This document shows positions 13,373 through 62,891 of a stretch of 64,000 nt of DNA, piece after piece; within the stretch, counting starts at the first letter, position 1; the number at the start of each line of letters is the position of its first letter. The position numbers were made by a program, and so were the translations under genes. A model generated the notes under the pieces. The model was not told the origin of the DNA. It was given only the letters and a program-made list of their open reading frames with translations, and made no database searches. The DNA is from Leptotrichia hofstadii (GTDB taxonomy: Bacteria; Fusobacteriota; Fusobacteriia; Fusobacteriales; Leptotrichiaceae). The stretch spans positions 744,001 through 808,000 of the forward strand of contig NZ_AP019823.1 in NCBI RefSeq assembly GCF_007990525.1, written 5' to 3'.

Positions 13373-15538
13373 ATGACAACTAAAAATTTTATTAATCAGA
13401 CAAATAGAACGATTCTATTTGAAGAAGTTAATCCAGAAAAAATGGATTTAATAACTTTGATTGATGATGCACGAGAGATGGATTCACTTGATGATGAAAG
13501 AATACTTGAAATTAATAAGCATTTGTTAGTAAGCAGTTTTGATGAATTTTTAGCAAAGTTTGAGCCAAAAGTTTACAGTTATTATAATGCGGAAACTCAA
13601 AGTATAAAGTATATTTTGAAAAAGCCTGAAGGAATACCAGAAGAACTGATAACTGAAATTAAAATTGATAACGGCAATACATTTTTTAAAATGTTAAATA
13701 CTCTTATTGAAGCTAGAAAATCACAAGGAAATAGAAACGTAGACTTCAAATTTGAAAATATTTTAGAGTTAATATCTCCAAAAAAAGTAATTGAAGATAT
13801 AAAACAGACAAGAAAAGAAATTGCATATGTATATAATAAATACGAGGAACTTGATGATGAAAATCCTAAAAAATTGGAATTAGGAGATAAACTTAATGAA
13901 AAGTTTGAAGAGGCTTCAAAAAATTATAGTAATGTTTTAGGAATGCTTCCGCTAGCTATTGAAGATATAAAAACAAGACTTCTTATTGGACATGATGAAA
14001 ATAATGCAAAATCTGAAAAGATTAAATTGGGAATGCTTCAAGTTGGAGATAAGGGAGAACTTGAAGTTATAGAATACAAACAGGAAGAATCAAGAGCATT
14101 AACTTTAGTAGAGGAAAAACATACGACAGAATTAGTTGAAGCGTTTAGAGATGATTATGAAAGTATTTCAGAAGAACCAAACCAATACATAAGTGATTTA
14201 GTTGTAAGAACATTTGTACCTTTAGCAAAAGGAATTGTCGAAATTGATCCAGTGCAGGAAGTTGAAAATTATAATAATTACTTGGTTTTTTATAAATCAG
14301 CTCAGGAAGATTTTGTAAAAATTGCAAAACCATTGATAGAAAAATTGTTAGGTATAAAAATGTTCTTTGAACAGTATGATACTAAAGTGTCGTTAATGAA
14401 ACCAACATTATTAATAACAAATATAAAACCTGAAATGATTGTTAAAGCTGGAAACAAAGAAAGATTGCAGGCATTCTTAAATACAGTCAATGCGAAAAAT
14501 GATTTTGACAATACAATTTGGTTTGGAATATATCCAAATGTGGATTTAGATGTGGAAAAAGGTAAAAAGAAAGTAAGAGAAAGATTTAAAGGAACTAAGG
14601 CTGAAGAGAAAATTGAAAAGAATACAATAGAAACTTTAACAAACCTGATGACAGTTTTAGGTAAATATAAAATACAAGTATTTTTTAATTTTGAAGGAAC
14701 TTATGAAACATCATTTGATAATTTGGCAACTATGGGTGTTGATAAATACATAGAAAAAACTAAAATTCTTGAGGATCAACCTTATTCAGAATATCTAATA
14801 CCTTCAATTCCCAATTTTACAATAATACCAAAAGATAAATCTGGTGTAGTGCTAGATTTTAAAATGAAGTATCAAGAAGAAGTTGGTGCTGAATTATCAA
14901 AAGACAAGGAAGATTTGTTGAAATTTTGGATAGAGGGAGTATATGTTGATTCTTCTTATGTTGCGGCAGGAATAACAGCAGCCAGTCAATGTCCTAATTT
15001 CTTAAAAGATAGATTCAAAAATGTATCACCAGTATATCCAGGAGTGAGATTTGATATAGAAGCTGAAGATAATTCATATAAAGCAAGAACTACTATGTCA
15101 AAAGAAATTTCAGGATTTACAAATACAATAAAAGATAGAATCAATCAGTTTAATTACGGATTCATATTTTCATCTGATTCTGCACATATGCAAAAAGAAA
15201 AAATAAAAAATATTGTTGTTTATAAGGCAAGAACTTTAGCAAGAAATCCAGAAGGAACTTATGAATCATTGTATAAAACTTTAACAACAACATTTATTGA
15301 AAGAACTTTAAGATTTGTTACAACTGACTTTAAGGAAGATAAATTAAATATGTTCTTTAGTACAAATCCAGAAAGTCAAAAATCAATATGGACAAAAGAC
15401 TTAAAATTTGTAAATGGAATAATGCAAAAAGGTGATGACATTACACATACAATTGATGAAGAAAACGGGATATGTCAGTTAAATATAACATTTGCAGGAA
15501 ATGTTAAGAATTTGCAAGTTGAAATTAACAAAAACTAA
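13373..15538 (+). CDS. TssC-like contractile sheath protein (candidate, long form)
   Basis: The 721-residue soluble protein has no signal peptide. Its C-terminal third (about residues 495-715) resembles TssC/sheath proteins, notably VDSSYVAAGITAASQ near 524 followed by a P-x-F-L-K-D-R-F stretch, and a final beta-rich segment. The N-terminal half is acidic and helical with a possible coiled coil near 150-190, and may replace or include the TssB part, since no separate tssB is seen. The next gene encodes a tube-like protein, the usual sheath-tube order. The assignment rests on pattern and context; a structure prediction would be decisive. Confidence 0.6.
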   Translation: MTTKNFINQTNRTILFEEVNPEKMDLITLIDDAREMDSLDDERILEINKHLLVSSFDEFLAKFEPKVYSYYNAETQSIKYILKKPEGIPEELITEIKIDNGNTFFKMLNTLIEARKSQGNRNVDFKFENILELISPKKVIEDIKQTRKEIAYVYNKYEELDDENPKKLELGDKLNEKFEEASKNYSNVLGMLPLAIEDIKTRLLIGHDENNAKSEKIKLGMLQVGDKGELEVIEYKQEESRALTLVEEKHTTELVEAFRDDYESISEEPNQYISDLVVRTFVPLAKGIVEIDPVQEVENYNNYLVFYKSAQEDFVKIAKPLIEKLLGIKMFFEQYDTKVSLMKPTLLITNIKPEMIVKAGNKERLQAFLNTVNAKNDFDNTIWFGIYPNVDLDVEKGKKKVRERFKGTKAEEKIEKNTIETLTNLMTVLGKYKIQVFFNFEGTYETSFDNLATMGVDKYIEKTKILEDQPYSEYLIPSIPNFTIIPKDKSGVVLDFKMKYQEEVGAELSKDKEDLLKFWIEGVYVDSSYVAAGITAASQCPNFLKDRFKNVSPVYPGVRFDIEAEDNSYKARTTMSKEISGFTNTIKDRINQFNYGFIFSSDSAHMQKEKIKNIVVYKARTLARNPEGTYESLYKTLTTTFIERTLRFVTTDFKEDKLNMFFSTNPESQKSIWTKDLKFVNGIMQKGDDITHTIDEENGICQLNITFAGNVKNLQVEINKN

Positions 15539-15581
15539 TTATGTTTAGTAACAAAAAATTATATATATAAGGAGGAATTTT

Positions 15582-16019: not shown

Positions 16020-16027
16020 TGTAACAC

Positions 16028-16088: not shown

Positions 16089-16871
16089 ATGTTTATAAAT
16101 AAATATCCAGTTTTTAAAAAAGGGAATGTGCTGGAAAAGGAAGATTTAGATTTATTAAGGGATAATCCGCTCGAAGTGTTGAGCTTGATGTATTCTGATA
16201 AAAGTAATGGAATAATAAAAGGATTTGACTTGATACCTAATTATAGTGAAAGAATAGTGATAATTACAAAAGGAATGGCAAAATGTAATGGGGAACTTTT
16301 TTGGATGAAGGAAGATTATATATTTGATATGCCAAAACAAGAGGAACGGTATATATTAAAACTTAAATTAGTGTCAGATATAGAAGAAAGAAAATATTAT
16401 GTAAGGGAAGGACGTTTTGTGCTGGAACTTGGGGAAAATGTTAATGAAGATGAAATTGAGATAACAAGGTTTATCACAAGAGAAGGGGCTGAATTGAGAA
16501 ATGACTATCAAAATTTCAGGGATTTGAGAAGAGATTTTAATTTGATGGAAATTATAAATACAAAATATTCTTCAGCACATAAATGGGGAACTTTTCATCC
16601 ACATGTATTGAAACTATGGGGAAAGGAAGTTTCAAAAAAGGAAAATCTTGATATTTTTGATATAAATTTTTATGTAACTTGTCTACAGCAGGATGTTATA
16701 GAACGAGATGTCATAACTTCATATATAAATGCAAAACTTAATTTGACAGATGAAAATTATACAAATGAACAAATGTTTAGACATTTATTGACAATATTAG
16801 ATAATTTAGGAACAGAAAGAAAAAAAGTTGAGAAAAAACGAATAATACCTAGAAAAATAATAGTAGAATAA
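16089..16871 (+). CDS. Probable baseplate/adaptor protein (TssK or phage receptor-domain like)
   Basis: This is a 260-residue soluble protein. Residues about 30-110 have the alternating pattern of a beta-sandwich: a SNGIIKGFDLIPN segment, then IVIITKGMAKCNGELFWMKED, then an EERYILKLKLV strand. This recalls phage tail/baseplate proteins and the N-terminal shoulder of TssK. A charged helical C-terminus follows (NYTNEQMFRHLLTILDNL). GGAGGG precedes the ATG at 16089. It lies directly after the tube gene. The family is not certain; a role linking baseplate and tube is inference. Confidence 0.5.
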   Translation: MFINKYPVFKKGNVLEKEDLDLLRDNPLEVLSLMYSDKSNGIIKGFDLIPNYSERIVIITKGMAKCNGELFWMKEDYIFDMPKQEERYILKLKLVSDIEERKYYVREGRFVLELGENVNEDEIEITRFITREGAELRNDYQNFRDLRRDFNLMEIINTKYSSAHKWGTFHPHVLKLWGKEVSKKENLDIFDINFYVTCLQQDVIERDVITSYINAKLNLTDENYTNEQMFRHLLTILDNLGTERKKVEKKRIIPRKIIVE

Positions 16872-16909: not shown

Positions 16910-17803
16910 ATGAAATTTAGAGTAAGTATAGCTGGAGGAAATAACAATACATCAAATAATCCGTTCGGAGGTTTAGGCAACGTTTCAGTTCCAAGTGTAG
17001 CAATGAACTTTGTATCAAATGGAGAAAATAAAAATCCAATTTCAAATGCAATGGGAGGACTGACACAGCAAGGCGGAGTAATTCTTTCAAGTGATGAAAT
17101 ATTGGAAGTATCTTACAGTACAAACCCAATATATGGTGAAACGATGAGTGCTTCTCAAAGCCAAGTAACATTAAGAATTGTAGGAAGATTACTTCCCACA
17201 GCTTCAGAAAATAATAGTCCTGAAGATGAAGGTGAAGGGATAGTTAGCGGAATAATGGGAACACTTGGTATGGGAACATTATTTAACCAGTATAAAAGTG
17301 TAAAACACTTATTTGACAAAGATAATGAAGCAGGAGAAGAACTTCCAGAAGCCTCATTAAGCAGCAACCTCTTATCATCAAGCGGAATTACTGAATCAGT
17401 CGCAAAAAAAACAAAAGAAAGCAGTAAAAGTAAACTTGTTTCTCAAGTATTAGGAGTAAGTTCAGCACTGCCAATGACAAATTCGTTTACAAATGGAATA
17501 GGAAACAGCCTGAAAGGAATGTTCGGAGGACTTGGAAATTTCGGAGAAAGCAATTTATATGATCAAAATAAGCAGAATGTGAAAGAATTATCATTGTGGG
17601 CAATGACTTACGGAGATGAAAAATCAACTAGGGATGTAATGGTGCAGACAGATTTAGGGGGAGGAAAGACGTTTGAATTGTATTTTCCTAAAATGTATGT
17701 GGATAGTTTTAATCAGGATTTTAGTGTTAGAAGTGGAGAAGGTACTTTTGAATTATTATTAAGTCAAACAGTATTTAATGAAGAAAATATTAACCTAAGA
17801 TAG
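16910..17803 (+). CDS. Hcp-fold protein with a large internal insertion
   Basis: The product has 297 residues. Residues about 55-95 (SDEILEVSYSTNP, then VTLRIVGRLLP) align with the N-terminal strands of the tube protein at 15582, and residues about 230-290 (ELSLWAMTYGDEKSTRDV, then VRSGEGTFELLLSQ) align with its C-terminal half. Between them sit about 125 residues rich in Gly, Ser, Asn and Leu, and a Gly/Asn-rich leader precedes the first part. It is probably a specialised tube, cap or cargo-carrying Hcp. AGGAGGA precedes the ATG. Its 3' third is duplicated at 19815-20197. Confidence 0.6.
   Translation: MKFRVSIAGGNNNTSNNPFGGLGNVSVPSVAMNFVSNGENKNPISNAMGGLTQQGGVILSSDEILEVSYSTNPIYGETMSASQSQVTLRIVGRLLPTASENNSPEDEGEGIVSGIMGTLGMGTLFNQYKSVKHLFDKDNEAGEELPEASLSSNLLSSSGITESVAKKTKESSKSKLVSQVLGVSSALPMTNSFTNGIGNSLKGMFGGLGNFGESNLYDQNKQNVKELSLWAMTYGDEKSTRDVMVQTDLGGGKTFELYFPKMYVDSFNQDFSVRSGEGTFELLLSQTVFNEENINLR
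17418..17803 (+). repeat. Hcp-like gene 3' end, duplicated at about 19817-20197
   Basis: The two copies agree closely from AGCAGTAAAAG to the C-terminal strand and diverge only near the last 15 codons. The second copy is joined on its left to a J-domain gene start. Confidence 0.85.
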
Positions 17804-19766: not shown

Positions 19767-19847
19767 ATGACAGATTATTATAAAATACTAGGTGTTTCAG
19801 AAGATGCTGATGCAGCAGTAAAAGCAAACTTGTTTCTGAAGTTTTAG
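19767..19847 (+). pseudogene. 5' fragment of a J-domain (dnaJ-like) gene
   Basis: The fragment begins MTDYYKIL and continues with GVSEDADA, almost the same as the start of the J-domain gene at 21103. After about 47 bases it joins, out of frame, sequence belonging to the Hcp-like gene and stops after 26 residues. It has its own GGAGAG ribosome binding site. It is the left half of a tandem-duplication junction. Confidence 0.85.
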
Positions 19848-20197
19848 GAGTAAGCTCAACACTGCCAATGACAAATTCATTTACAAATGGAACAGGAAAC
19901 AGCCTGAAAGGAATGTTTGGAGGGCTTGGAAATTTTGGAGAAAGCAATTTATATGATCAAAATAAGCAGAATGTGAAAGAGCTATCATTGTGGGCGATGA
20001 CTTACGGAGATGAAAAATCAACTAGGGATGTAATGGTTCAGACAGATTTAGGGGGAAGAAAGACGTTTGAATTGTATTTTCCTAAAATGTATGTGGATAG
20101 TTTTAATCAAAGTTTTAGTGTTAGAGGTGGAGAAGGATATTTTGTTTTAAATTTAAAACAAACAGGATTTAATGAGGATGGAATAAATTTAAAATAG
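19815..20197 (+). pseudogene. 3' fragment of the Hcp-fold insertion gene (second copy)
   Basis: From about 19817 the sequence matches 17418-17803 with few differences. It encodes the last part of the insertion and the C-terminal Hcp-like strands (ELSLWAMTYGDEKSTRDV and the end strand). The N-terminal half is absent. Possible internal starts exist (ATG at 19868), but no good ribosome binding site supports them. This is a displaced tail of the kind often left by recombination in polymorphic toxin loci. Confidence 0.8.
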
Positions 20198-21102: not shown

Positions 21103-21567
21103 ATGACAGATTATTATAAAATACTAGATGTTTTAGAAGATGCTGATGCAAAAGAGATAAAGGTAAAATATAGAAAATTGGCTATGAAGTATCATCCAGA
21201 CAGGAATCCTGATGATAAGAAAGCTGAAGAAATGTTTAAGGCAATCAGCGAGGCGTATGAAATACTTGGAGATGAGAATAAAAGAAAAGAATACGATGAG
21301 AAGAGGAAGAATAAGGGAAATGCTGGAAGTCAAAGATTTGGTGAGAAGAAATCAAGCAGGGCAGAGCAGAACAGTGAATCAGCTAAAAGAGGGGCTGAAG
21401 CATTTTTCCGTAATTTTTCAGCAAATCCAAATGATATAAAGAACATGTTTGAAAGTGCTTTTGATGTGAATAATATGAGCAGTTCTGATAAGGATAAAAT
21501 GAGGGAACATAAAAAAAGCATGGAACAAAGTTTTGAAAACTTTTTTAAGCCTAAAAAGAATAAATAA
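21103..21567 (+). CDS. J-domain co-chaperone
   Basis: The 154-residue protein has an N-terminal J domain: [20 protein letters not shown], the HPD triad at residues 31-33, and [16 protein letters not shown]. The J domain stimulates Hsp70 ATPases. The remaining part is Gln/Ser/Lys-rich and lacks the G/F and zinc-finger regions of DnaJ, so it is a dedicated class C type J protein. The natural partner in this locus is the Hsp70-like ATPase at 60252. It may help assemble or recycle sheath or effector proteins (inference). Confidence 0.85.
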
Positions 21568-21644: not shown

Positions 21645-21872
21645 ATGCTTTGGAGAATAAAAAGTTTTTTCAGTAGAATTAGAAGTCGAATTTTTAATGT
21701 ATTTTCTGGAAGAAGCAGTTTATATCGAGTTGAAAGTTTGAGAAGAGGTGCGACTTCAACTTCAAAAAAGAAAAAGAAAATGCTTCAATGTCGGTTGATA
21801 AGGGAATTAGAAAATATGAAAAAAGACAGATGGCTGCCAGAGGGGAAAGACAGTACAACTTTTTTAATTTAA
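21645..21872 (+). CDS. Basic N-terminal part of the adjacent FHA protein, possibly frameshifted
   Basis: The 75-residue frame starts at a well-placed AAAGGAAATAATAAAATG and encodes an amphipathic arginine-rich leader (MLWRIKSFFSRIRSRIFNVF) and a lysine run coded by CAAAAAAGAAAAAGAAAATG. The following FHA gene begins inside this frame at 21788 without a good ribosome binding site. The simplest reading is one longer gene with a one-base change in the A-rich tract. If both are separate, this encodes a short basic peptide. Confidence 0.45.
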   Translation: MLWRIKSFFSRIRSRIFNVFSGRSSLYRVESLRRGATSTSKKKKKMLQCRLIRELENMKKDRWLPEGKDSTTFLI

Positions 21873-22459
21873 AAAATATAATAATTTTGATTATACTATT
21901 TTTTACTTTTGTGTATATTCATATGGCTGGATATTCTGTGAAAAGTCTATATATCGCAATTTTTATATTTATAGCACTAACATTGTATCTTCTTATAGTA
22001 GAAAGATTTAAGGAAAGAGTGGAAGTGCATGATGAGATAAAGGAAATAAAGCATGAGCGTGAAAGAGAACATCACGTATTTTTGGATAAAGTAAAAGAAA
22101 TAGAGGAAGTTGAAAAGAATCAAATTGAAAATATAATTTTAAAAAATTCAGATGACTATGATATCAAAGTATGGAAGATTGGAAGAGCATCTTCATTGCT
22201 GATAGGGAAAAGAACGCCTAGAAACAAGGTGGATATAGACGTGAGTGAAGGAGTATATTCAAATTTGGTAAGCAGGGCTCATGGAATGTTGAACAGAGTA
22301 AATGGAGTTTGGTACTATGAAGATTTAGGTTCACAAAATGGAAGTGGAATAGAAAAGAAAGATGACAGAAGAAAAATAAAATTAAAAAGAAATGTACCTG
22401 TAAAGGTTGAAAGCGGAGATATAATATACTTAGCGACAACAAAAATACTATTGAAATAG
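21788..22459 (+). CDS. Membrane-anchored FHA domain protein
   Basis: The product has 223 residues as read. Two close hydrophobic helices (about residues 29-70) are followed by a charged coiled coil and a C-terminal forkhead-associated domain: WKIGRASSLLIG, LVSRAHGMLN, and YYEDLGSQNGSGI, containing the conserved GR, SxxH and NG positions that bind phosphothreonine. In type VI systems an FHA protein transmits kinase signals to the machine; the kinase at 53037 is the obvious partner. The start may truly lie at 21645. Confidence 0.8.
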   Translation: MSVDKGIRKYEKRQMAARGERQYNFFNLKNIIILIILFFTFVYIHMAGYSVKSLYIAIFIFIALTLYLLIVERFKERVEVHDEIKEIKHEREREHHVFLDKVKEIEEVEKNQIENIILKNSDDYDIKVWKIGRASSLLIGKRTPRNKVDIDVSEGVYSNLVSRAHGMLNRVNGVWYYEDLGSQNGSGIEKKDDRRKIKLKRNVPVKVESGDIIYLATTKILLK

Positions 22460-22486: not shown

Positions 22487-24271
22487 ATGGAGAATAATTT
22501 AAATAATCAGAAACCAGTGGAATTTTTTTCAGCTGAAAGAATAAAGATAGAAATAGATGGACAGCAGATACTTTGGAGAGATATGAATCTTGAAATAGAT
22601 TCAAAAATAGGGGAACATACGATTGGAAAAATAAAATACGTGGCATCACCGAACCAGTTAAGTTTATACGATGCCCTGATAGATAAAAAAGGCGACAAGA
22701 CAATAGTAGTTACCGGAAGAAGCAACATATCGGATGAAGCAGGAAATGCTACAGATAAAATATTCTTAAATGGAGTGATAAGTAAACTTAGGATGAGGGA
22801 AACAAAGGCAGGAGCATTGGCAGTTGAGTTAGTGTGCAGTTCAAAGAGCATACTTCTTGACAGAATACCAAGATACCGTTCATTTCAGGATCCGACACTT
22901 ACGTATAAAGACATAGCGCAGGAAGTGAATAAAAATTATAATGATGGGGAAACATTGGTAAATGTAGGGGAAGATATGAAAGAAGTTCCAAGAATGACAA
23001 TCCAGTATAACGAAACAGACTGGGAATACTTAAAGAGAATAGCATCGTATACAGGACAGCCACTAATGGCAAATTCAAATAAAGTTCTGGTAGGATTTTT
23101 CAAGAATATGCCAGCACAGACACCAAACTTGACATATTCATATTTTGGAAAGGAAACAGAGGAAGAAAGAACATATTACAGGGTAGAAGGGACAGAAGTG
23201 TATTCGGTATCAACACCGATAAAGTTAAAAATCAGAAACAAAGTATCAGGAGAAGAAGTAGAAAATGACTACTATGTAATAGAAAGCAGAATATACAATG
23301 AAGGAAACACTTTAAAATGCGAATACAAGCTAGGAAAACAGACAGACTACTTTGTAGATCCAATACCGCACGAAAAGATAAGAGGAGCAGTGATAGAAGC
23401 TAGAACAGTACATATTGCAAGAACAGATGAAAGCAAGAGTGAGCATGGAAGGACTGATGGAAGTTCGGATAATCTTGAAGGTAGAACTATGGGAATAAAG
23501 CCTGTAAATATCTATGTTGCTGAAGAACAGGAAAAAAATAATAACAGAAGTCAGGAAGTGAAGGCAAGCGATATTGCAGTTATGACAGTTGACTTGACAG
23601 AAGGGCTGAGAAAACTTGGAGGAGCAGTGCAAAGTGAAGCAGATAAATATGCTGGAAAAAGTTATTTCCCATATGTAACTCCATACAGTCAGACAAATAC
23701 AGGATTTACGCCTGCACCAGAGCCAAATGACAGAGTAGCGCTTTATTTTCCAAGTGAAAACGAAACGCATGCTTTGGTAATGGGAGCGGTAAATAATAAT
23801 GGTAATGGGAGATTTACTAATCCAGATAAAAGGAACTTTACATTAGGACCAAGTCAGGCGGCTAGAGGAGGAACACCTGCGAACGAAGGGAAACCGATGT
23901 ATAATTTTACTTTGGATAGTGAGAAGTTTATTGTCAGTGTTGGTAGTATAATCAGTTTAAGTTCAAGTGGCACAGTTAGCATAACAGGGACTTCAAATGT
24001 GGATATTGCTTCAACAGGAGCGAATGCGACGTTAAGCGCAGGGCAGAATATAGATATTACTGCAAATCAGGATGCAACGGTAACGGCTTCATCTGGAATT
24101 GCAACATTGAGTGGAAATACATATGCTAATGTAAAAGGAAATCAAAATGCAGAAATTGTTGGTGGGCATAATACAAATGTGGGATTAGGTGGTGGAAAAT
24201 CTTCAAATAAAACGATTGTTGTTGGAAGTTCAAAAGTGGAAGTAAAAAGTGGAGAGGTAGAAATAAATTAG
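22487..24271 (+). CDS. vgrG: VgrG-like spike protein 1
   Basis: The 594-residue protein has a gp27-like N-terminal part with the conserved DRIPRYRSFQDPTLTY and TIQYNETDWEYLKRIA segments near residues 125-190, the late-control-gene-D/VgrG pattern. It then has a gp5-like OB fold near 360-440 (YVTPYSQTNTGFTPAPEPND). The tail (about 470-594) is Gly/Ser/Asn-rich with short beta repeats such as VDIAST and AEIVGG, expected to form the spike needle. The C-terminal type containing GTPANEGKPMYNFTLDSEKF is shared with copy 2 only. It heads cassette 1: partner gene, HINT-nuclease, immunity genes. Confidence 0.92.
   Translation: MENNLNNQKPVEFFSAERIKIEIDGQQILWRDMNLEIDSKIGEHTIGKIKYVASPNQLSLYDALIDKKGDKTIVVTGRSNISDEAGNATDKIFLNGVISKLRMRETKAGALAVELVCSSKSILLDRIPRYRSFQDPTLTYKDIAQEVNKNYNDGETLVNVGEDMKEVPRMTIQYNETDWEYLKRIASYTGQPLMANSNKVLVGFFKNMPAQTPNLTYSYFGKETEEERTYYRVEGTEVYSVSTPIKLKIRNKVSGEEVENDYYVIESRIYNEGNTLKCEYKLGKQTDYFVDPIPHEKIRGAVIEARTVHIARTDESKSEHGRTDGSSDNLEGRTMGIKPVNIYVAEEQEKNNNRSQEVKASDIAVMTVDLTEGLRKLGGAVQSEADKYAGKSYFPYVTPYSQTNTGFTPAPEPNDRVALYFPSENETHALVMGAVNNNGNGRFTNPDKRNFTLGPSQAARGGTPANEGKPMYNFTLDSEKFIVSVGSIISLSSSGTVSITGTSNVDIASTGANATLSAGQNIDITANQDATVTASSGIATLSGNTYANVKGNQNAEIVGGHNTNVGLGGGKSSNKTIVVGSSKVEVKSGEVEIN
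23330..23960 (+). repeat. vgrG 1 3' segment shared with vgrG 2 (second copy about 34738-35360)
   Basis: The codons for the VDPIPHEKIRGAVIEA region through the LDSEKFIVSVGS region are strongly conserved, with only scattered mostly silent changes. After this point the two spike tails are unrelated in detail. The block marks the shared C-terminal subtype A. Confidence 0.75.
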
Positions 24272-24290: not shown

Positions 24291-25181
24291 ATGTTTAAAA
24301 ATAATTATACATTGAAATATAATTTAAGAGAGAAGGATAAAATAAACTATAAGATAAACTCCAAAATAGAGTATGAAAATTTAATTGTAAAATCGGAAAA
24401 AGAATATGAATACAAAATAGAATTTCAACCTCTCTCAAAGGGAATTCAGAATGATTTTATAATTAGAAATACGAGGTATGACCTTAAAAATTTTAATGAT
24501 AAAGAAAGTGATTTGGAAAAGATTTCTTTTGAAATAGATAAAACTTTTTTAGAAACAGATTATAGAATTGATAAAAAAGGAAAAATTATAAAAATAGAAA
24601 ATCTATCAAAATTAAAAACAGATTGGTATAATAAAAAAAATGAAATTTTGAGAAAGTATGAGGAGCAGTATGAAGAAATACAAGATTTAGTAGATGGAAT
24701 AACTAAAATTTTAAATAATTCAGATACAGTAGTTCAATATTTTCAAAATTATGGAGTTAATGGTATATTTTTTAGTGAGTTGTACGGAGAATTATATATT
24801 GAAGATAATGAGAAAAAGAAAAAAATATCAATACCTAATTTTATAACATTTTTTCCTTTACCATTAACGTTAAATATTATAACAAAAAAAATAAATAAAA
24901 TGGAAGACGAGATGTCTTTAATAATACATGGTAAATTAGATGAAATGCGGTTAGATAAACTGAATATAGAAGAGATGGTAAAGGCTAATTTACCAGAAGA
25001 AGACATAAGAGGGTTAAAATATGAAGTTGAATATGAGCAAGATGTTTCTTTTTATTTGATAACTGGATTAGTAAAAAATTGTAATCAAATAATAGAAGTA
25101 AAGATTTACAACAAACTGGACAATAAGGAATTATTTAAAAATCGAATAGAGGTTAAACTAGAAGAAATTAAGGAGGAATAA
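24291..25181 (+). CDS. VgrG-PAAR cassette partner protein 1 (candidate effector adaptor)
   Basis: This is a 296-residue, acidic/lysine-rich soluble protein with no signal peptide. A beta-rich N-terminus is followed by a helical region (LKTDWYNKKNEILRKYEEQY) and a beta-rich C-terminus. No known family is recognised. It sits exactly between vgrG and a DUF4280 effector, where other type VI systems encode adaptors such as Eag/DUF1795 or Tap/DUF4123, and its stop overlaps the effector start (TAATG). The equivalent slot is filled in the other three cassettes by proteins of similar size and outline. Confidence 0.6.
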   Translation: MFKNNYTLKYNLREKDKINYKINSKIEYENLIVKSEKEYEYKIEFQPLSKGIQNDFIIRNTRYDLKNFNDKESDLEKISFEIDKTFLETDYRIDKKGKIIKIENLSKLKTDWYNKKNEILRKYEEQYEEIQDLVDGITKILNNSDTVVQYFQNYGVNGIFFSELYGELYIEDNEKKKKISIPNFITFFPLPLTLNIITKKINKMEDEMSLIIHGKLDEMRLDKLNIEEMVKANLPEEDIRGLKYEVEYEQDVSFYLITGLVKNCNQIIEVKIYNKLDNKELFKNRIEVKLEEIKEE

Positions 25182-26922: not shown

Positions 26923-27435
26923 ATGAAAAAAGAATGGCAAGAAGAATTTTTAGAAAAACAAAATGAGTTAATAAGAGCGATAGCACAACAGGTAAGCAAT
27001 ACAATACCAGATACTTGGGAGAAATTTTATTTTCATGCAGATATAAATGATGATTTTAGTGGGGGAGTATATTTTTTCTTTAATACAGAAAAAGATAAAA
27101 AATTAAATTATTCGCATGATATACCTGAAATATATAACATAAATGAAGATGAATACGATGAAAAATACGATAAATTATATGATTTGTCTGTGGATTTAAA
27201 ACAATTATTTATAGATTGCGAACAAGAACCTTGGCAGGCGATAACAATAATAGTTGATGAAAAAGGATCATTGAAAATGGATTATGATTATGCAGACTGG
27301 TTAAGTAGTCCATATACTCCGACACCATTGATGAACTATTTTAAGTACAAGTATTTGGGGAAAATACCTAAAGATAAGGAAGAAGAAAAATTATTTAAGG
27401 AAATGGAGGAATATCAGAGTAAATTTAATAAGTAG
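26923..27435 (+). CDS. DUF600/YezG-family immunity protein
   Basis: This 170-residue acidic protein matches the YezG/DUF600 pattern: an N-terminal helix with WEKFYFHADIND, a central GGVYFFFN strand, an INEDEYDEKYDKLYDLS helix, and a late QEPWQAITIIVDEKG strand followed by YDYADW. YezG-type proteins bind and block NS-type nuclease toxins. Its place directly after the nuclease toxin makes it the cognate immunity protein with good probability. GGGAG precedes the ATG. Confidence 0.8.
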   Translation: MKKEWQEEFLEKQNELIRAIAQQVSNTIPDTWEKFYFHADINDDFSGGVYFFFNTEKDKKLNYSHDIPEIYNINEDEYDEKYDKLYDLSVDLKQLFIDCEQEPWQAITIIVDEKGSLKMDYDYADWLSSPYTPTPLMNYFKYKYLGKIPKDKEEEKLFKEMEEYQSKFNK

Positions 27436-46957: not shown

Positions 46958-46983
46958 AAAATAATTAAAAAAGGAGTATGAAA

Positions 46984-50875: not shown

Positions 50876-50998
50876 GTGAAGGAATGGAAATGGAGAGATG
50901 GGAAGCGGTTGAGTTATAAAATATTTGAAAAAAAGTTTAATGAAAAGATAAGGGGAAAATTTTTAGAGGAAGTAAAGGAGATGGAATATAATGGATAA
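50876..50998 (+). CDS. Possible small basic protein
   Basis: A GTG-started frame of 40 residues (VKEWKWRDGKRLSYKIFEKK and on) fills the gap between the neighbouring genes and overlaps the next ATG by eight bases. The composition looks like real protein, but the ribosome binding site is weak and a stop precedes the GTG, so it may be the remains of a longer gene. Confidence 0.3.
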   Translation: MKEWKWRDGKRLSYKIFEKKFNEKIRGKFLEEVKEMEYNG

Positions 50999-51701
50999 TA
51001 AAAAACAGTATCAATATATATGGAATGTCATTTATGAAATGTTTCAGAAAGGAGAGGATATAAATAAGATAAAATATGTGTTGTCAAAGCAAATTTCACC
51101 ATATATGGAGATAAATGACAAAGATATAAATTATTTTGATGAGGAGATGGAAATTGAGATAAATCCATTTTTGAGATTTAATAAGATTTTATCAAATATT
51201 ATTGATATAAATATAAAAAAGGATTATGAGGAAGTTAGAAAGATAGTTTTTAATGTGATGGTGCATATATTGGCAAAACTTGATTTGTATGAGGGGATGA
51301 ATAAAAAGATTATAATAAACCGTAAGATAGTTAAGGACTTGGAAGACGGAAAGTATGGGGATGAGATACAGAATTTGATAAAGGAGTTTGACAGGATAGA
51401 AAAAATAAATATTGCTAACACAATAAATGATATGTACAAACATTCAAACGGGATGTACGCTTTTGAGGAAATTATAAAGAAAATATACCCTGATTCGATA
51501 ATATACAATAATAAGGTTTCAGAGGATAAACTTGTTATTTATATTAACAGCCAAAAAAATGAAAAAAACAGGAAAAAATTTAGACTGCTTTCAAAGTTAT
51601 TTTTACCAATGGGATTAAGGACAAAAGTTTATTGGGAACATCATTTTGGAGTAATAGGAATAGAAGAAACAATGACAATTGAATCATCATCAATTTTTTA
51701 A
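50991..51701 (+). CDS. Unknown protein with baseplate-like C-terminus
   Basis: The 236-residue product has a helical acidic N-terminus with a central NDKDINYFDEEMEIEINPFL segment. The C-terminal 60 residues (DKLVIYINSQKN, then FLPMGLRTKVYWEHHFGVI) form an alpha/beta unit ending in a strand pair, like the C-termini of the 41929/43174 products and of small phage baseplate proteins (gpI/TssG-like). GGAG lies at 50978-50981, ten bases before the ATG. No clear family; a wedge component is a guess. Confidence 0.55.
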   Translation: MDNKKQYQYIWNVIYEMFQKGEDINKIKYVLSKQISPYMEINDKDINYFDEEMEIEINPFLRFNKILSNIIDINIKKDYEEVRKIVFNVMVHILAKLDLYEGMNKKIIINRKIVKDLEDGKYGDEIQNLIKEFDRIEKINIANTINDMYKHSNGMYAFEEIIKKIYPDSIIYNNKVSEDKLVIYINSQKNEKNRKKFRLLSKLFLPMGLRTKVYWEHHFGVIGIEETMTIESSSIF

Positions 51702-51746: not shown

Positions 51747-52931
51747 ATGCAAATAACAAAAACTAAATATTCAACATATTTTTTTAGGGAACATCATAAT
51801 ACAGATCAGGAGGAAAATACATTTTCTGCATTTATTCCAGAAGGGAAAAAAGGATTTTGGATATTAACTGAAGATACTGAAAAGAAGGAAAATGTTGCAA
51901 AAATTGCAGTAATGGCTGTGGCTGAAGCATATTTTTCAAATAATAGCCTGTCAGAAGATAATATGACACATCTTCTTAATGTGGCAAATAAAGAAATAAT
52001 TGAAAGCAAAATTAAGAGAAATATGGATTACTACAGTAAATTTTCAACATCAATAGTGGCTGCCGAAGATGATAAAATGATAGTTGGAAATATAGGAAAT
52101 TCAAAAGTAAAGATTTTCCGTGATAATGAACTGATTGAAGAAATTGAGGGAGATACAATTGTAAGCCTTGATTTAAAAAAATACGATTATATATTATCGG
52201 GGACAGCTGAATTTTGGGAAATCGTAAATGAAAATGAAATATTGGACATGTTTATAAGAAATAGCAGCCGTTTTAGTTTTGAAAGTGAATTGAGCCAGAA
52301 AGTAAATAGTATAGAGGTACAGAGAAAAATTGAGATACCGTTTTTGTCTATTTTTATTGAAAATTTGGAAAAGGAAGAAGAGGAAGAATATACAGTAACT
52401 ACTGTTGTGGAAAGAGTAAATCCACTTAATTACATACTTCCGATGTTAATAGCAGTATTTTTTGTCACAGCAGTGGGGAAGAGTATCTATAACAGTAGAA
52501 TAGAAAAATCTAAAAAAGAAAAAGTGATTGTTCAGAAGCCATCTCAAAATCAACAATCAGAAAATATGGCAAAAATAAACACAACTGTTAAACCTGAAAA
52601 TGTTCAACCACAAATTCCTGCTCCAGTTGTAGAAGAAAAAGTGGAAGAAACAGCTGTATTACCGCCACAAAACGAAGAAGAAAAAGAAATTGAAAAATTA
52701 GAACAGGAAAATCAAAGTAAGGCAGTGAAACTTCCAGAAATAAAAAGAGAAGCGAGAACATCTGTTAATCCTGTAAAAAAACAGCCAAAAAGAGAGAAAA
52801 ATAATATAAATTTAAAACCAAAACCAAAATCAAAATCTAGAACAGCAAGAAAATCATATGATTCGCTTGATGAGGAAATTAGACAGAATTGGAAAAAATT
52901 GGGAAGAGATAATAACGGAAATATTATTTAA
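51747..52931 (+). CDS. Membrane protein with strongly degenerate PP2C-like domain
   Basis: The product has 394 residues. Residues 1-210 follow the PP2C fold order seen in the product of 29699 (STSIVAAEDDKMIVGNIGNS matching its SFLYGNVGNT region, and GTAEFWEIV for TIGFWENI), but nearly all catalytic aspartates are lost: the VADG site reads TEDT and the SDG site GTA. A membrane helix near 230-250 is followed by a Pro/Lys/Glu-rich tail of 140 residues ending in a basic region. It should be a non-enzymatic sensor or regulator, placed just before the kinase gene. Confidence 0.7.
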   Translation: MQITKTKYSTYFFREHHNTDQEENTFSAFIPEGKKGFWILTEDTEKKENVAKIAVMAVAEAYFSNNSLSEDNMTHLLNVANKEIIESKIKRNMDYYSKFSTSIVAAEDDKMIVGNIGNSKVKIFRDNELIEEIEGDTIVSLDLKKYDYILSGTAEFWEIVNENEILDMFIRNSSRFSFESELSQKVNSIEVQRKIEIPFLSIFIENLEKEEEEEYTVTTVVERVNPLNYILPMLIAVFFVTAVGKSIYNSRIEKSKKEKVIVQKPSQNQQSENMAKINTTVKPENVQPQIPAPVVEEKVEETAVLPPQNEEEKEIEKLEQENQSKAVKLPEIKREARTSVNPVKKQPKREKNNINLKPKPKSKSRTARKSYDSLDEEIRQNWKKLGRDNNGNII

Positions 52932-53036: not shown

Positions 53037-53900
53037 ATGAATTATTTGCCAATAAATTATAAGTTGAAAAATAAATATGAAGTAAAACAGGTAATTGCAG
53101 AAAGTGATTTTTCAAATGTATATTTAACATTTAACAAGAAAAAAAGATATGTTATAAAAGAATGTTTCCCTTCACAGCTAGTTATTAGGGGAGCGAATCA
53201 GGAAGTTTTTACTAAAAAATATGAGGATAGATTAAAGGAAGTAAAGGAAAGTTTTGACAGGGAAGCGGAAATATTGGCTCATTTGCATAATGTGCTTGAT
53301 TCAAACTCTAAAGGCAGAATAATTGAATTGTTTGATTATTTTGAGGAAAATAAAACAGTTTATATTGTCGAGGAATATTTTAATTTTCCAACATTAAAAC
53401 AGTATATACTTAATGAAGAAAATGTGAAAGGTAAAGATATAAAAAAAATATATTTTGATATTTTAGATATATTTATAAAAATTCATAACGAAAAAATAAT
53501 TCATAGGGATGTAAAGCCTTCAAATATATTAATCAATAAGAAAAATAAAATAAAAATAATAGATTTTGGATCAAGCATATATTTTGATGAAAAAAATGGG
53601 ACATATATAAAAGTAACGGACGGATATTCTCCCCTTGAAATGTACTCATTAAAAGCTGAAAATGATGAAAGAACAGATATATATAGCCTTTCGGCATTAC
53701 TATATTTTATGATAACTAAAAAGAAACCAGATGAAGTATTAAAAAGATTCTATAATCCTGAATTGATTTTTGATGAAGATATAAGTGAGGATATAAGAAA
53801 ATTTATTGAAAAAGGAATGGAAGTAGAGATAAAGGATAGATTTAACAATGTTGTTGAAATGAAATCGGAATTTGAAAAATTAGATTTTAAGGACATTTAG
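53037..53900 (+). CDS. Ser/Thr protein kinase
   Basis: The 287-residue kinase domain has no membrane anchor. The ATP-anchoring Lys41 (VIKE), catalytic HRDVKPSN from His156, metal-binding DFGS from Asp176 and the DERTDIYSLSALLYFM helix F are all present. The phosphate-binding loop is unusual: IAESDFSNVY has no glycine. In type VI systems the kinase PpkA phosphorylates a threonine recognised by an FHA protein, and PppA reverses it; here two FHA proteins and two PP2C-like proteins share the locus. GGAG precedes the ATG. Confidence 0.9.
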   Translation: MNYLPINYKLKNKYEVKQVIAESDFSNVYLTFNKKKRYVIKECFPSQLVIRGANQEVFTKKYEDRLKEVKESFDREAEILAHLHNVLDSNSKGRIIELFDYFEENKTVYIVEEYFNFPTLKQYILNEENVKGKDIKKIYFDILDIFIKIHNEKIIHRDVKPSNILINKKNKIKIIDFGSSIYFDEKNGTYIKVTDGYSPLEMYSLKAENDERTDIYSLSALLYFMITKKKPDEVLKRFYNPELIFDEDISEDIRKFIEKGMEVEIKDRFNNVVEMKSEFEKLDFKDI

Positions 53901-53946: not shown

Positions 53947-55617
53947 ATGAATAATAATTTAAACAACCAAAATCCAGTAGAATTTTTTTCAGCAGAAAGA
54001 ATAAAAATAGAAATTGATGGACAGCAGATACTTTGGAGAGATATGAGTCTAGAAATTGATTCAAAGATAGGGGAACATACAATTGGGAGAATAAAATATA
54101 TTGGTTCGGTAAATCAGTTAAGTTTATACGATGCTCTGATAGACAGAAAAGGGGATAAAGAAATAAAAATACTAGGAAGAAGTAATATTGCTGATAATAC
54201 TGGAAATTCAACAGAAAAAATATTTCTAAATGGAGTAATAAATGAGTTGCAAATAAACGAAACAACAGCAGGAGCTTTGACAGTGGAAATTACTGCAATT
54301 TCAAAAAGTGTTCTTTTGGATAGAATACCGAGATACCGTTCGTTTCAAGATCCAACATTAACTTATTCAGCGATAGCGGAGGAAATAAATGGAAATTATG
54401 GTACAAATGATGGAAAAATTGTAAATGTTGGTGAAGATATGCAGGCAGTACCTAGAATGACAATCCAGTATAACGAAACAGACTGGGAATATTTGAAAAG
54501 AATAGCATCGTATACGGGACAGCCAGTAATGGCATACTCAGATAAGGTATTTGTAGGATTTTTCAAGAATATGCCAGCACAGACACCAAACTTAAAGTAT
54601 TCTCAATTTGGGAAAAGAACAAAAGAAGAGAGAACATATTTTAAAATAACAGGAACAGAAGTATATCCAGTAGCAACACCAATAAAATTAAAGACCAGAA
54701 ACAGAGTATCAGGAGAAGAAGTAGAAAATGATTACTATGTTCTTGAAAATAAAATTTATAACGAAGGAAATACGTTAAAATGTGAATATATACTTGGAAA
54801 ACAGACAGACTATTTTGTAGATCCAATACCGCATGAAAAGATAAGAGGAGCAGTAATAGAAGCGAGAACAGTACATATTGCAAGAACAGATGAAAGCAAG
54901 AGTGAGCATGGAAGAACTGATGGGAGTTCGGATAATCTTGAGGGCAGAACGATTGGAGCAAAACCGCTTAATAAATATATAGAAAAAACTGAAAATAATC
55001 AGAATGAAAATACAAAAGAAAAAGTCAAGACAAAAGATATTGCAGTTATGACATTAAATTTAACGGAAGGATTGTTAAAATTAGGAGAAAATGGGCAGTC
55101 ATTTGAGGATAAATATGCTGGGAAAAGTTATTTTCCTTATATAACTCCATATAGTCAAAGTAATACAGGATTTACGCCAGCACCAGAAGTAAATGACAGA
55201 GTGGCACTTTATTTTCCAAACGGGAACGAAACACATGCAATAGTTTTAGGAGCGGTTAATAATGATGGAAATGGAAGGTTTACAGATGTGGCTAACAGGA
55301 ATTATCACGTGGGAGATTCGGATTTTAATATGGTACTTGCGACTAATAGTTTGTCAACAAGTGCGGCAAGTTCGATTTCACAGACTGCTAGCAGTATATC
55401 GGAAAGTGCAGACAGTATTTCAGAGAGTGCTGGGAATATAAGTAATAATGCGAAAAGTTATACAGAAATAGTGGAAGGAAGTAAAACTCTTGTAGCAGGA
55501 AATATTTCTCAAACTTCACAAGGAAATACAAGCATACAGTCAAATGGGGATACTGAAGTAAATTCGAATGGCTTTTCTGTAGTAAATGGCGGAAGTAATG
55601 TGTTGATTAATGGATAG
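53947..55617 (+). CDS. vgrG: VgrG-like spike protein 4
   Basis: The 556-residue product has an N-terminal part nearly the same as VgrG 2; 54168-54452 appears identical base for base to 34112-34396. The part after DGSSDNLEGRT matches VgrG 3 (IGAKPLNKYIE, RNYHVGDSDFNM) and ends with a Ser-rich helix-like stretch (SISESADSISESAGN) and FSVVNGGSNVLING. It heads cassette 4, which has the same gene order as cassette 3. Confidence 0.92.
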   Translation: MNNNLNNQNPVEFFSAERIKIEIDGQQILWRDMSLEIDSKIGEHTIGRIKYIGSVNQLSLYDALIDRKGDKEIKILGRSNIADNTGNSTEKIFLNGVINELQINETTAGALTVEITAISKSVLLDRIPRYRSFQDPTLTYSAIAEEINGNYGTNDGKIVNVGEDMQAVPRMTIQYNETDWEYLKRIASYTGQPVMAYSDKVFVGFFKNMPAQTPNLKYSQFGKRTKEERTYFKITGTEVYPVATPIKLKTRNRVSGEEVENDYYVLENKIYNEGNTLKCEYILGKQTDYFVDPIPHEKIRGAVIEARTVHIARTDESKSEHGRTDGSSDNLEGRTIGAKPLNKYIEKTENNQNENTKEKVKTKDIAVMTLNLTEGLLKLGENGQSFEDKYAGKSYFPYITPYSQSNTGFTPAPEVNDRVALYFPNGNETHAIVLGAVNNDGNGRFTDVANRNYHVGDSDFNMVLATNSLSTSAASSISQTASSISESADSISESAGNISNNAKSYTEIVEGSKTLVAGNISQTSQGNTSIQSNGDTEVNSNGFSVVNGGSNVLING

Positions 55618-55625: not shown

Positions 55626-56420
55626 ATGGAGAATACAATTTATATGGATAAGTACGAATTTGAGTTAAAAAAAGAATTTAGAGATAAATTTAATCGAATA
55701 AATAATAAACTTTTTGAATATGCTTCAGAAGTATATTTAGCAAATTTAAAAGATGACAGTGAAAAAAATGATAATTTCGAATTATTTCATCTTTTGGAAG
55801 AAAATATAGAGGTAAAAAGAAATAGTGAAAATATTGAATATCCAGATATTTTTATGTTTGAAATATTTAGTTCATTAATCCTTTATTTAGATAAGGAAAG
55901 TTTTTATTGTAAGGCGATAAATAAGGATAATATCTTATATAGATTTGGAATTATAGAAGAAGCATGTAAAAATAAATATCGCTTAAAACAAGAACTTAAA
56001 GAAATTAGAGAAGTTTTAGAAAAGGAAGATGATACCCAATTTTTTGCAGGAATAAACGAATCTGCATTAGTAAAATGTTTATTTGGAAATCCATATTTTA
56101 GAAATGAAGAATTTTCAAGAATAGAAAGAGGATTTTACTTGAATGGGTTTATAAATAATCTTAGTATTCCTGTAAAAATAAAGGAAAAAATAGAAAATGG
56201 TAATATTGAAATTATTGGTGAAATAGATACCTTGATAATGAATGAATCTAATTTTATTGAAAAAATTAAACTAGAATACGGAATTGATATAGAAGATTAT
56301 GAGTTTTCATATAAATTAAATTTGAGAAAATCGAGAGAAAAAATAAAAACTATAGAAATTCAAATAAATTTAAAATTAGGAAAACGGTATGAAATTAATG
56401 AAAGAATTATGATTATTTAA
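55626..56420 (+). CDS. VgrG-PAAR cassette partner protein 4 (candidate effector adaptor)
   Basis: The 264-residue protein is homologous to the product of 46178 along its length (IFSSLILYLDKESFYCKAIN, NILYRFGIIEEACKNK, and GNPYFRNEEF for RFPYFIDKNK). It has no signal peptide. AGGAGGAG stands three to four bases before the ATG. Like its relative it sits between vgrG and a DUF4280-like gene. Unknown family; the role is inferred from the invariant position. Confidence 0.65.
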   Translation: MENTIYMDKYEFELKKEFRDKFNRINNKLFEYASEVYLANLKDDSEKNDNFELFHLLEENIEVKRNSENIEYPDIFMFEIFSSLILYLDKESFYCKAINKDNILYRFGIIEEACKNKYRLKQELKEIREVLEKEDDTQFFAGINESALVKCLFGNPYFRNEEFSRIERGFYLNGFINNLSIPVKIKEKIENGNIEIIGEIDTLIMNESNFIEKIKLEYGIDIEDYEFSYKLNLRKSREKIKTIEIQINLKLGKRYEINERIMII

Positions 56421-56452: not shown

Positions 56453-57844
56453 ATGAAAAAAGAAAACATAGATAAAATTTATATTCCACAATCAGAAGGA
56501 ATACCTGATATCAATAGTTATGAAGGATTAAATAAACACTATTTAAAAGTTTCGGAAAGTTTAAGTGAAATACATAAAAAAGAAGAAGAGGAAGCACAAA
56601 ATCAACATAAACAAATTCTTGAACTTGCAGGTAGAAAAAGAATAACAGGAGAAGAACCAAGTACACTTGTATGTGATGGAGCTACTCTGATTTGTCCTCT
56701 GGCAGAATTTAATACTAGATTACTTCAAATGGGTGATGATGCTGTAGCTGTAAAGGAAAAATCAGCAATGGTAGAATTTAAAGTTCACAGAAAAAGCGGA
56801 TATCTTATGGGAAAAGATCCAATTGGCACAATAAATGATAATTTGCCTGAAAATTTTAATTTACTTATGGAAATTAAGTGTTCTTTAACAGGAGATGTAT
56901 GTAAAATCAATGAATATGGGGGTGAATGGACAAATTATTCTAAGAATTTTTTTGTGAATGGATATAATGCTTTAATAAAGACTTCGTCATTAAAGTGTAA
57001 TATAGAAGAGGTAACCAAAAAATGTTTTATAAAAGATAAAGAACCTTTGTTAGATATAGTATATAATGGACAAAATCCAGAAATAAAAGATGCCTTTTTA
57101 GGAAGTCTCTTTTCGCCTTCAGATAGAAATTTCATAAGAAGTGTGGTAATTGTAGCAACTGTAGTGATAATAACCAAAAATATTGGAGCAGTCGTAACTG
57201 AGGGAAGATTATTGTTTTTGTATAATCAAGGGTATGCAGCAACAGGCTCTACATTAGGAGGAGTATTATACACGGAATTACAAACAGGGATAGGAGCAAA
57301 AACATTTGCTCTTGCTGAATCTACAAAATCTTTATTTGAAAATTCTGATGGAGGCATAATGCTAATTAAAAAAGCAAAAAGTATAGTAGGGGAACCAGGA
57401 ATACAGATGTATGGTTTTGCTAAAGAAACTGTAGGGAATATAGAAACTGCTGGCTTTATAAGTAAAGGAATCTTTGAAGCGGATATGTTTTTGAAAAATA
57501 AAAAACTTGATAAAGAAATTAGTCAAAATAATATAAAATTAAAAAATTTAGAAAGAATTGAAAATAAGACATTTGAAGATGCTATAGTTCAAATTGAAAA
57601 ATATAAAATAAATAAAAATAATGATGAATTAAGTAATAAAAAATTTAAAAACTTTACATTTATTTCAGATAGAGTTGAAGATATTGAAAAAAAAATAAAT
57701 AACGATCCTAAAAATAGTGTAAAAAAAATAGTTATAAAAGAAATAAAAACTAGTATTCCTTCTGACTGGCTAAGCTACCGTTCACAGATAGAATATTCAA
57801 AACAACCATTTTTTACAGATATAGAAATAAAAGGAGTTAAATAA
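56453..57844 (+). CDS. DUF4280-like (PAAR-like) tip protein without HINT domain, subtype B
   Basis: In the 463-residue product, after a helical leader, the tip domain shows STLVCDGATLICPLAEFNTR, then IKCSLTGDVCKINEYGG and a NALIKTSSLKCNIEEV strand. A hydrophobic stretch near residues 222-255 (FIRSVVIVATVVIITKNIGA) could be a membrane-inserting segment of the type that adaptor chaperones shield. The C-terminus is Lys/Asn-rich and ends SYRSQIEYSKQPF, matching the ending of the product of 46984. The next gene starts two bases after its stop. Confidence 0.7.
   Translation: MKKENIDKIYIPQSEGIPDINSYEGLNKHYLKVSESLSEIHKKEEEEAQNQHKQILELAGRKRITGEEPSTLVCDGATLICPLAEFNTRLLQMGDDAVAVKEKSAMVEFKVHRKSGYLMGKDPIGTINDNLPENFNLLMEIKCSLTGDVCKINEYGGEWTNYSKNFFVNGYNALIKTSSLKCNIEEVTKKCFIKDKEPLLDIVYNGQNPEIKDAFLGSLFSPSDRNFIRSVVIVATVVIITKNIGAVVTEGRLLFLYNQGYAATGSTLGGVLYTELQTGIGAKTFALAESTKSLFENSDGGIMLIKKAKSIVGEPGIQMYGFAKETVGNIETAGFISKGIFEADMFLKNKKLDKEISQNNIKLKNLERIENKTFEDAIVQIEKYKINKNNDELSNKKFKNFTFISDRVEDIEKKINNDPKNSVKKIVIKEIKTSIPSDWLSYRSQIEYSKQPFFTDIEIKGVK

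Positions 57845-62891: not shown

Follow-up and report, generated by a model that had tools for sequence, protein, structure and literature searches.

Which machine fires the DUF4280 (PAAR-like) tip proteins of Gram-positive bacteria? The question of a machine like the type VI secretion system (T6SS) for these proteins was raised in PMC5349215 (2016), and the accessible part of PMC8651086 (2021) proposes an 'unknown phage-like translocation system' for Firmicutes. A concrete, testable candidate answer is offered by a locus at positions 13373-62891 of a 64,000-nucleotide stretch (the window, whose numbering is used below) spanning 744001-808000 of contig NZ_AP019823.1 in the 2.6-Mb genome of Leptotrichia hofstadii. 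From its list of open reading frames (ORFs), 42 products of at least 90 amino acids, all encoded on the + strand, were scanned with Pfam. We consider, with a probability of roughly three in four, that this locus encodes a cell-bound contractile injection system (CIS) of a lineage separate from the catalogued T6SSs and extracellular CISs (eCISs) and common to Fusobacteriota and Bacillota.

Putative sheath, tube, spike and baseplate proteins

A single-chain contractile sheath, an Hcp-type tube, VgrG spikes, DUF4280 tips, immunity genes, FHA and PP2C-like proteins with transmembrane segments (TMs), and a kinase were supported by sequence or predicted fold (Table 1). The Pfam scan agreed with a sequence-only reading of the window, which had listed four VgrGs, four DUF4280 proteins, two FHA proteins, a kinase and a J protein, all in one direction. 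The VgrG spike and PAAR-type tip that are a feature of T6SSs were thus represented by four VgrG-like and four DUF4280 proteins. Both PP2C-like proteins of that reading were also recovered, 29699 by Pfam and 51747 by homology only.

The 13373 product had no credible sequence match in Pfam, NCBIfam or the Protein Data Bank (PDB), no VipA or VipB match in Pfam, and is one chain rather than a TssB plus TssC pair; an orthologue matched no PHROG, and PHROGs named no core protein. Two parvovirus NS1 chains in the PDB (E ~0.002) were matched over 40 residues, which was taken as chance. An AlphaFold2 model from 52 sequences had a mean pLDDT of 55.5 and a pTM of 0.51. When VIA-align was run on 992 chains out of Foldseek's best 1000, as a second look and not as an independent search, 21 of the 22 top rows were contractile-tail entries (Z 8.2-11.9, 174-236 residues aligned), the identity of the matched chains as sheath chains being taken from entry titles. 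These rows, at ranks 1-19, 21 and 22, comprised phage KP1, the Streptomyces coelicolor CIS, PVC, P1, pyocin, the Anabaena CIS, phiCD508, PhiKZ and several T6SS sheaths; the first unrelated row stood at rank 20 (Z 8.4, 80 residues), and ranks 23-50 were unrelated (Z 7.1-7.8, 57-86 residues except one of 192). The T6SS sheath entries reached Z 8.2-9.2, and the modelled fold seems to be common to T6SS sheaths. Phage and eCIS rows covered model residues 1-12 to 601-619 and T6SS rows residues 288-319 to 600-621; such a pattern would be expected if one chain combined TssB- and TssC-like parts. The sheath-like character proposed for 13373 in the sequence-only reading was thus upheld by predicted fold only, from a weak model. 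For the tube, a TssD match was found in 18 of the 22 members of the 15582 family (best E 0.0013), and a distant relative matched profile positions 19-122 of 128 (E 0.0024), backing the Hcp-like assignment of 15582, so that sheath-like and tube-like affinities were found for the two products to which that reading had given them.

The wedge family (41929 and 43174) was modelled on an orthologue in locus L012 from 25 sequences (pLDDT 79.4, pTM 0.76). Foldseek placed two S. coelicolor CIS baseplate chains at ranks 1-2 (E 4.9e-4 and 1.8e-3) and, at rank 3, one from the T6SS TssK-TssF-TssG complex (E 9.7e-3), the next match, unrelated, having an E of 0.24. VIA-align aligned 352 residues to a chain of this T6SS complex (Z 6.6, rmsd 9.6), and T4 baseplate entries followed with Z values of 4.7 and 4.6. 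The matched chains are presumably TssF and gp6, and the family is probably, as modelled, a TssF/gp6 wedge; the tandem arrangement of 41929 and 43174 could reflect a heterodimeric wedge. The gene for the core protein c10 lay directly 3' of the wedge gene in the Bacillota loci examined, and its position points to c10 as the probable TssG/gp7 partner of the wedge. In the scan of locus products, 41929, 43174 and 50991 had no TssF or TssG Pfam match. Profiles of Hcp, the wedge and c10 found nothing useful among PDB sequences, and weak Pfam matches to GldN, Syntaxin_2 and AcrF8 in locus products were dropped as chance.

Putative regulatory proteins and the Hsp70-like ATPase

Hydropathy scans predicted two TMs in 57 of 67 orthologues of the first FHA protein and one in the other 10, and a single TM in 73/74 members of each of two PP2C-like families, PPa and PPb. 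The DNxT motif, a metal site, was kept in 70/74 PPa and 0/74 PPb proteins and was absent from both PP2C-like proteins of the window, suggesting that in Bacillota a phosphatase that is probably active accompanies one that is probably a pseudophosphatase, whereas the window seems to hold the pseudophosphatase kind only. Because a strict SDGxWD motif occurred in just 22/74 PPa proteins, its absence was not taken as evidence.

The HPD motif of the J protein was found in 72/72 orthologues. The phosphate-1 and phosphate-2 motifs, which belong to the Hsp70/actin (ASKHA) nucleotide-binding fold, occurred in 69/73 and 72/73 orthologues, respectively, of the 60252 protein, which itself carries the phosphate motifs and on this ground would count among Hsp70/ASKHA ATPases. 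The Hsp70-like label of the sequence-only reading was retained on these motifs; 60252 had no Pfam match above cut-off (HSP70 E 0.0064, under cut-off, for an orthologue), and its profile matched no PDB sequence.

Distribution and conservation of the gene set

A peptide-pattern scan of 84,980 species, each represented by one genome, led to 163 confirmed loci. Counts were made on the best 80; these were picked by sheath similarity, are mutually related and come mostly from Paenibacillus, Brevibacillus and Lysinibacillus, and thus are not independent. The order sheath-Hcp-DnaJ-FHA(TM)-FHA-PP2C-PP2C-like-wedge-c10-Hsp70-like was the same in 71 of the 80, all assigned to Bacillota from their record titles, and this recurrence of set and order in other genomes indicates that the gene set is not due to chance. 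The exceptions were two Leptotrichia copies with c3 only, Frackibacter and Halanaerobacter with the rest further downstream, a rearranged Cetobacterium locus, one locus without a J match (L035), one without J, wedge or c10 matches (L078), and two interrupted by contig ends (L069 and L080). In Lysinibacillus, Paenibacillus, Clostridium and Propionispira, which represent all loci with conserved order that were read that far downstream, the core was followed by c3, c16, VgrG, c17, c18, a DUF4280-family protein and another VgrG; Pfam confirmed DUF4280 in the Lysinibacillus locus and found a pentapeptide domain in c17. For c16 we guessed a chaperone resembling DUF1795 (Eag); no such match and nothing useful in the PDB were found, and this remains a guess. 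The window had the same core order, with toxin cassettes interspersed among the core genes; compared with the Bacillota order, c3 was placed early and the PP2C-like proteins were of the degenerate kind only.

The sheath shared 82% identity with its counterparts in Leptotrichia hongkongensis and Leptotrichia sp. oral taxon 879 and 55-60% with those in Bacillota. The latter identity and the fixed gene order across two phyla would argue for a maintained cellular function. In a sheath tree of 54 rows, in which bootstrapping had not settled, Fusobacteriota rows including that of the window grouped together, apart from Bacillota, and the remote Bacillota sheath G317 sat on an extremely long branch whose placement was not trusted. 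Searches of 50,697 phage and 72,556 plasmid records found no counterpart of the sheath protein, and in viral contigs 21 pattern matches arose, all of which failed confirmation.

Of 60 relatives, 29 had the sheath and 30 had Hcp; the Hsp70-like protein was detected in 27, each of them one of the 29, although some of its matches were weak (down to E 3.2e-5). The two further sheath genomes were G023, with fragments, and G042, in which the Hsp70-like match was not detected; the extra Hcp was a diverged copy in G024. In a Bacillota sample, 6 of 299 genomes had a sheath match, two of them already among the known loci and one remote, indicating that the system is patchy. The remote locus (G317; sheath 28% identical) held sheath, Hcp, VgrG, wedge, c10, Hsp70-like, c3, DUF4280 and c18 genes in one stretch, with a kinase-like match further on. 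In this locus (L100, 4596-7577), a gene for a second Hsp70-like protein of 994 amino acids (HSP70 E 0.0046, under cut-off) adjoins that for a DUF4280-AHH protein. In five small-genome relatives (L103, L104, L105, L106 and L109) the genes were arranged compactly as sheath-Hcp-c3-FHA-FHA-(PP2C)-kinase-like, and 4/5 also had an Hsp70-like protein, which was much diverged; L106 is a 9-kb piece.

The genome of the window also contained a second, scattered set. The stretch at 1797-1834 kb carried genes for sheath, c3, Hcp, J, FHA1, VgrG and DUF4280, and a further Hcp gene lay at 1636 kb. Genes for wedge, c10, VgrG and an Hcp-like protein were located at 1521-1528 kb, and J/FHA/FHA/PP2C/PP2C/kinase/Hsp70-like genes at 2182-2193 kb.

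Marker genes of other systems

Marker genes were sought at the sequence level among the 42 locus products and, by genome-wide profile searches, in nine host genomes. IcmF_C (TssM) and TssK were found in 0/9 host genomes, the Escherichia coli control being positive. ClpV (TIGR03345) was above cut-off in 0/9, and the weaker matches in 9/9 are such as ClpB/ClpC-type ATPases would be expected to give. A gp25 (TssE) match occurred in 2/9, distant from the loci. In line with the sequence-only reading, TssJ, TssL, TssM, TssE and ClpV had no match among the 42 products, TssJ and TssL being sought at the locus only. No eCIS-type AAA+, tail-fibre or lysis match was found among these products either. A phage capsid and terminase, which that reading had named as findings that would speak against it, had no match among the 42 products, capsid being sought at the locus only, and TerL_ATPase and Phage_sheath_1 were absent from the genome of the window. 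Among the nine host genomes, TerL matches occurred in 4/9 (3 above cut-off) and an ordinary phage-type sheath elsewhere in 3/9.

Discussion

The locus is like T6SSs of types i-iii in its sheath-tube-VgrG-PAAR logic, TssD-like Hcp, probable TssF-like wedge, kinase/FHA/PP2C genes and toxin-immunity pairs, and unlike them in its single-chain sheath, its J/Hsp70-like pair, its Bacillota and Fusobacteriota hosts, and in that TssM, TssK and ClpV were not found. It has in common with the atypical T6SS of Francisella the DUF4280 tip family of IglG (PMC5349215). Unlike in that system, a TssB/TssC (IglA/IglB) pair was unmatched in the locus. We also take the regulatory and chaperone genes of the Francisella system to differ from those found here. 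The single-chain sheath is like that of eCISs such as PVC and the Streptomyces CIS, whose S. coelicolor baseplate gave the best Foldseek match to the wedge, whereas the core with TM-anchored FHA and PP2C-like proteins and the several toxin-fused VgrG/DUF4280 spikes are unlike eCISs, and gp25 and an eCIS-type AAA+ were unmatched. By sequence, the system would thus belong to neither T6SSs nor eCISs, yet it may work like a T6SS. The Firmicutes system of PMC8651086, in the accessible part of that paper, likewise has Phage_GPD/VgrG adjoining DUF4280 (PAAR_H) with no T6SS or eCIS genes near, and its loci may be of the present kind; unlike here, no sheath, tube or baseplate is named in that part of the text. 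The present gene set is not described in the accessible parts of PMC3482391, PMC9230969 and PMC11883445, and no description of it was found in the literature by title and abstract, with preprints and most subscription journals outside the search.

A very divergent true T6SS of the Francisella or Bacteroidota sort, with a membrane complex and ClpV changed beyond recognition, would account for the TssD-type Hcp, the TssF-like wedge and the kinase/FHA/PP2C set, which we take to be present in some T6SSs. The DUF4280 tips, common to Francisella IglG (PMC5349215), would fit as well. This explanation is nevertheless unlikely, considering that IcmF_C, TssK and above-cut-off ClpV were missing from all nine host genomes, that the sheath is one chain, and that the hosts found belong mostly to Bacillota, many of which lack an outer membrane and would not suit TssJLM. 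A single-chain sheath is also what eCISs and phages have, and eCIS entries were among the best fold rows and gave the best wedge match, so the locus might encode cytoplasmic particles set free by lysis; against such an eCIS stand the TM-anchored FHA and PP2C-like core proteins, the presence of more than one VgrG accompanied by toxin-fused tips and immunity genes, the absence of gp25 from the window's genome and the lack of tail-fibre, lysis or eCIS-type AAA+ matches in the 42 products, making it very unlikely.

The phage-type VgrG domains, the duplicated gene fragments, the transposase before the locus and the integrase-like ORF 3.4 kb past it could be remnants of a domesticated or decaying prophage tail, or mark a toxin locus whose 721-residue protein is no sheath. 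TerL and Phage_sheath_1 were absent from the window's genome, the sheath lacked phage, plasmid or confirmed viral-contig matches, and identity of 55-60% with fixed order spanned two phyla, all of which render this origin highly improbable.

Several results nonetheless weigh against a separate, cell-bound CIS. The sheath model is weak at the scores given above, and Foldseek with this model returned no sheath among its 50 best rows. The TssD scores inspected for the Hcp-like proteins were under the Pfam cut-off. The Z of 6.6 for the wedge did not reach the tool's noise guide of 8 and was outranked by a small unrelated domain, first at Z 6.7, and the Foldseek TM-scores of the wedge were low (0.15-0.24). 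No gp25 match was found in the window's genome. In the stretches examined, the five small-genome clusters lacked matches to VgrG, wedge and J, and the remote locus G317 had no J, FHA or PP2C match within 35 kb. Since G317 has Hsp70-like genes without the latter three, neither the pairing with J nor the FHA set is universal; judging from this one locus, the regulatory genes may be an add-on, with the Hsp70-like ATPase closer to the machine. Finally, contraction, secretion, membrane anchoring and the action of the Hsp70-like protein on the sheath are proposed from the genes. The sequence-only reading had advanced a distinct branch, similar to T6SSs, that uses DUF4280 tips and an Hsp70-J pair; this was supported, and no test overturned it, the role of the pair still being conjectural.

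For the separate CIS lineage, the following mode of action may be envisaged. A VgrG-DUF4280-toxin spike would be loaded, wedges would close about the spike, and the tube and sheath would then grow. The machine may be seated at the cytoplasmic membrane via the two-TM FHA protein, with firing licensed by kinase phosphorylation and FHA binding, and with PP2C-type proteins docking or resetting the machine. Contraction would push the tube and toxin into a neighbour cell, and the J protein and Hsp70-like ATPase might serve in assembly or disassembly of the machine, filling the position of ClpV in T6SSs. It is possible, and put forward here with some doubt, that these loci form a separate CIS class, mainly of Bacillota but also present in Fusobacteriota, in which membrane-anchored FHA/PP2C proteins stand in place of TssJLM and a dedicated Hsp70-like ATPase, usually with a J protein, in place of the AAA+ recycling ATPase; the FHA/PP2C anchor and Hsp70-J recycling would be its novel part. 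If so, T6SS-like weapons would reach bacteria without an outer membrane, with a different anchor and recycling engine, and Leptotrichia would gain a so far unlisted competition weapon for dense communities.

Features and surroundings of the locus

Table 1. Features assigned in the locus, with positions in the window
Feature	Position	Strand	Basis
Putative sigma-70-type promoter, TTGACA-N17-TATAAT	13287-13315	+	57 bases 5' of sheath ATG
Single-chain contractile sheath, 721 aa (predicted)	13373-15538	+	Predicted fold (AlphaFold2 and VIA-align)
Hcp/TssD-like tube protein, 145 aa	15582-16019	+	TssD E 0.016, 15.5 bits (cut-off 25.8)
Conserved core protein c3, baseplate candidate	16089-16871	+	Homologues in 26/80 loci; most other 10-kb flanks stop before c3, found in all loci read further
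Second, longer Hcp-like protein	16910-17803	+	Hcp profile E 1.4e-5 (small local set)
J-domain protein	21103-21567	+	DnaJ E 8.4e-27; HPD
FHA protein with two TMs (FHA1), membrane-anchor candidate	21788-22459	+	FHA E 8.1e-8
VgrG 1	22487-24271	+	Phage_GPD E 3.1e-7, sole VgrG above that cut-off
Cassette-1 protein between VgrG 1 and tip (putative role)	24291-25181	+	Position
Tip-effector, DUF4280 - two TMs - PT-HINT - Endonuclea_NS_2 nuclease	25181-26890	+	Pfam E 9e-17, 1.4e-18, 2.8e-37
YezG-like immunity protein	26923-27435	+	E 1.4e-42
GAD-like/Tdi1-type immunity protein	27448-27996	+	E 4.2e-14, 3.3e-20
FHA protein without TM	29072-29608	+	FHA E 8.9e-7; match in 75/80 loci
PP2C-like protein, one TM and tetratricopeptide repeats; possible pseudophosphatase	29699-32083	+	PP2C_2 E 1.8e-8; ADG kept, DNxT absent
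VgrG 2	33882-35729	+	Phage_GPD E 7.7e-6, under cut-off; 81% identical to VgrG 1
Tip-effector, DUF4280 - PT-HINT - C-terminus without assignment	36433-39348	+	Pfam E 8.7e-10, 3.5e-32
Possible SUKH-like immunity protein	39350-39940	+	SMI1_KNR4 E 0.027, under cut-off; position
TssF/gp6-like baseplate wedge, copy A (probable)	41929-43173	+	Predicted fold of family
TssF/gp6-like baseplate wedge, copy B (probable)	43174-44445	+	Same family as 41929
VgrG 3	44495-46165	+	Phage_base_V E 2.8e-5, above cut-off; Phage_GPD E 7.3e-7, under cut-off
Cassette-3 protein, homologue of 55626, cluster c19 (putative role)	46178-46957	+	
Tip-effector candidate with DUF4280	46978-48351	+	E 2.4e-4, 22.1 bits, under cut-off 26.3
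Core protein c10, TssG/gp7 candidate	50991-51701	+	Position; match in 73/80 loci
Second PP2C-like protein, one TM, degenerate	51747-52931	+	Clusters with 29699; no Pfam match; three scanned motifs absent
Ser/Thr protein kinase	53037-53900	+	Pkinase E 4.1e-31; HRDVKPSN, DFG; match in 60/80 loci
VgrG 4	53947-55617	+	Phage_base_V E 4e-5, above cut-off; Phage_GPD E 1.3e-6, under cut-off
Cassette-4 protein, homologue of 46178, cluster c19	55626-56420	+	Clustering
Tip-effector candidate with DUF4280	56453-57844	+	E 8.1e-6, barely above cut-off
Hsp70/actin-type ATPase, 879 aa	60252-62891	+	DFGTSNT at 220, DCGGGTTD at 442

The putative promoter was the single + strand match to TTGACA-N16-18-TATAAT in a pattern scan of the whole window. 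Pieces of an IS3-type transposase lie 5' of it at 11607-12800, with HTH_21 and rve in 12083-12619, and restriction-modification genes occupy 13-11057, comprising a giant Eco57I-methylase/helicase gene, the frame of which starts ahead of the window, together with a pair encoding a type III methylase and a ResIII helicase.

Within the locus, 19767-20197 appeared by eye to be a partial duplication in which the beginning of the J gene, cut short, continues as a fragment resembling the Hcp-like gene at 16910, with which the ORF at 19868 clustered. MORN-repeat proteins encoded at 28029-29042 and 40002-41243, adjoining toxin cassettes, are possible accessory or immunity proteins. The AAA-ATPase_like/PDDEXK_9 gene at 32150-33814, which has homologues elsewhere in the same genome, looks like an unrelated insertion.

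The gene 3' of the Hsp70-like gene, at 62961-64184, is HlyD/CusB-like (HlyD_D23 E 5.6e-8), a 46% homologue of it also lying 3' of the second Hsp70-like gene at 2193 kb, and the next gene, ending at 64971, has an M23 peptidase domain (E 1.1e-30); their products are possible envelope-crossing helpers. An ORF at 66259-67323, 3.4 kb past the locus, resembles by eye a phage-type integrase, and the locus may lie in a mobile island.

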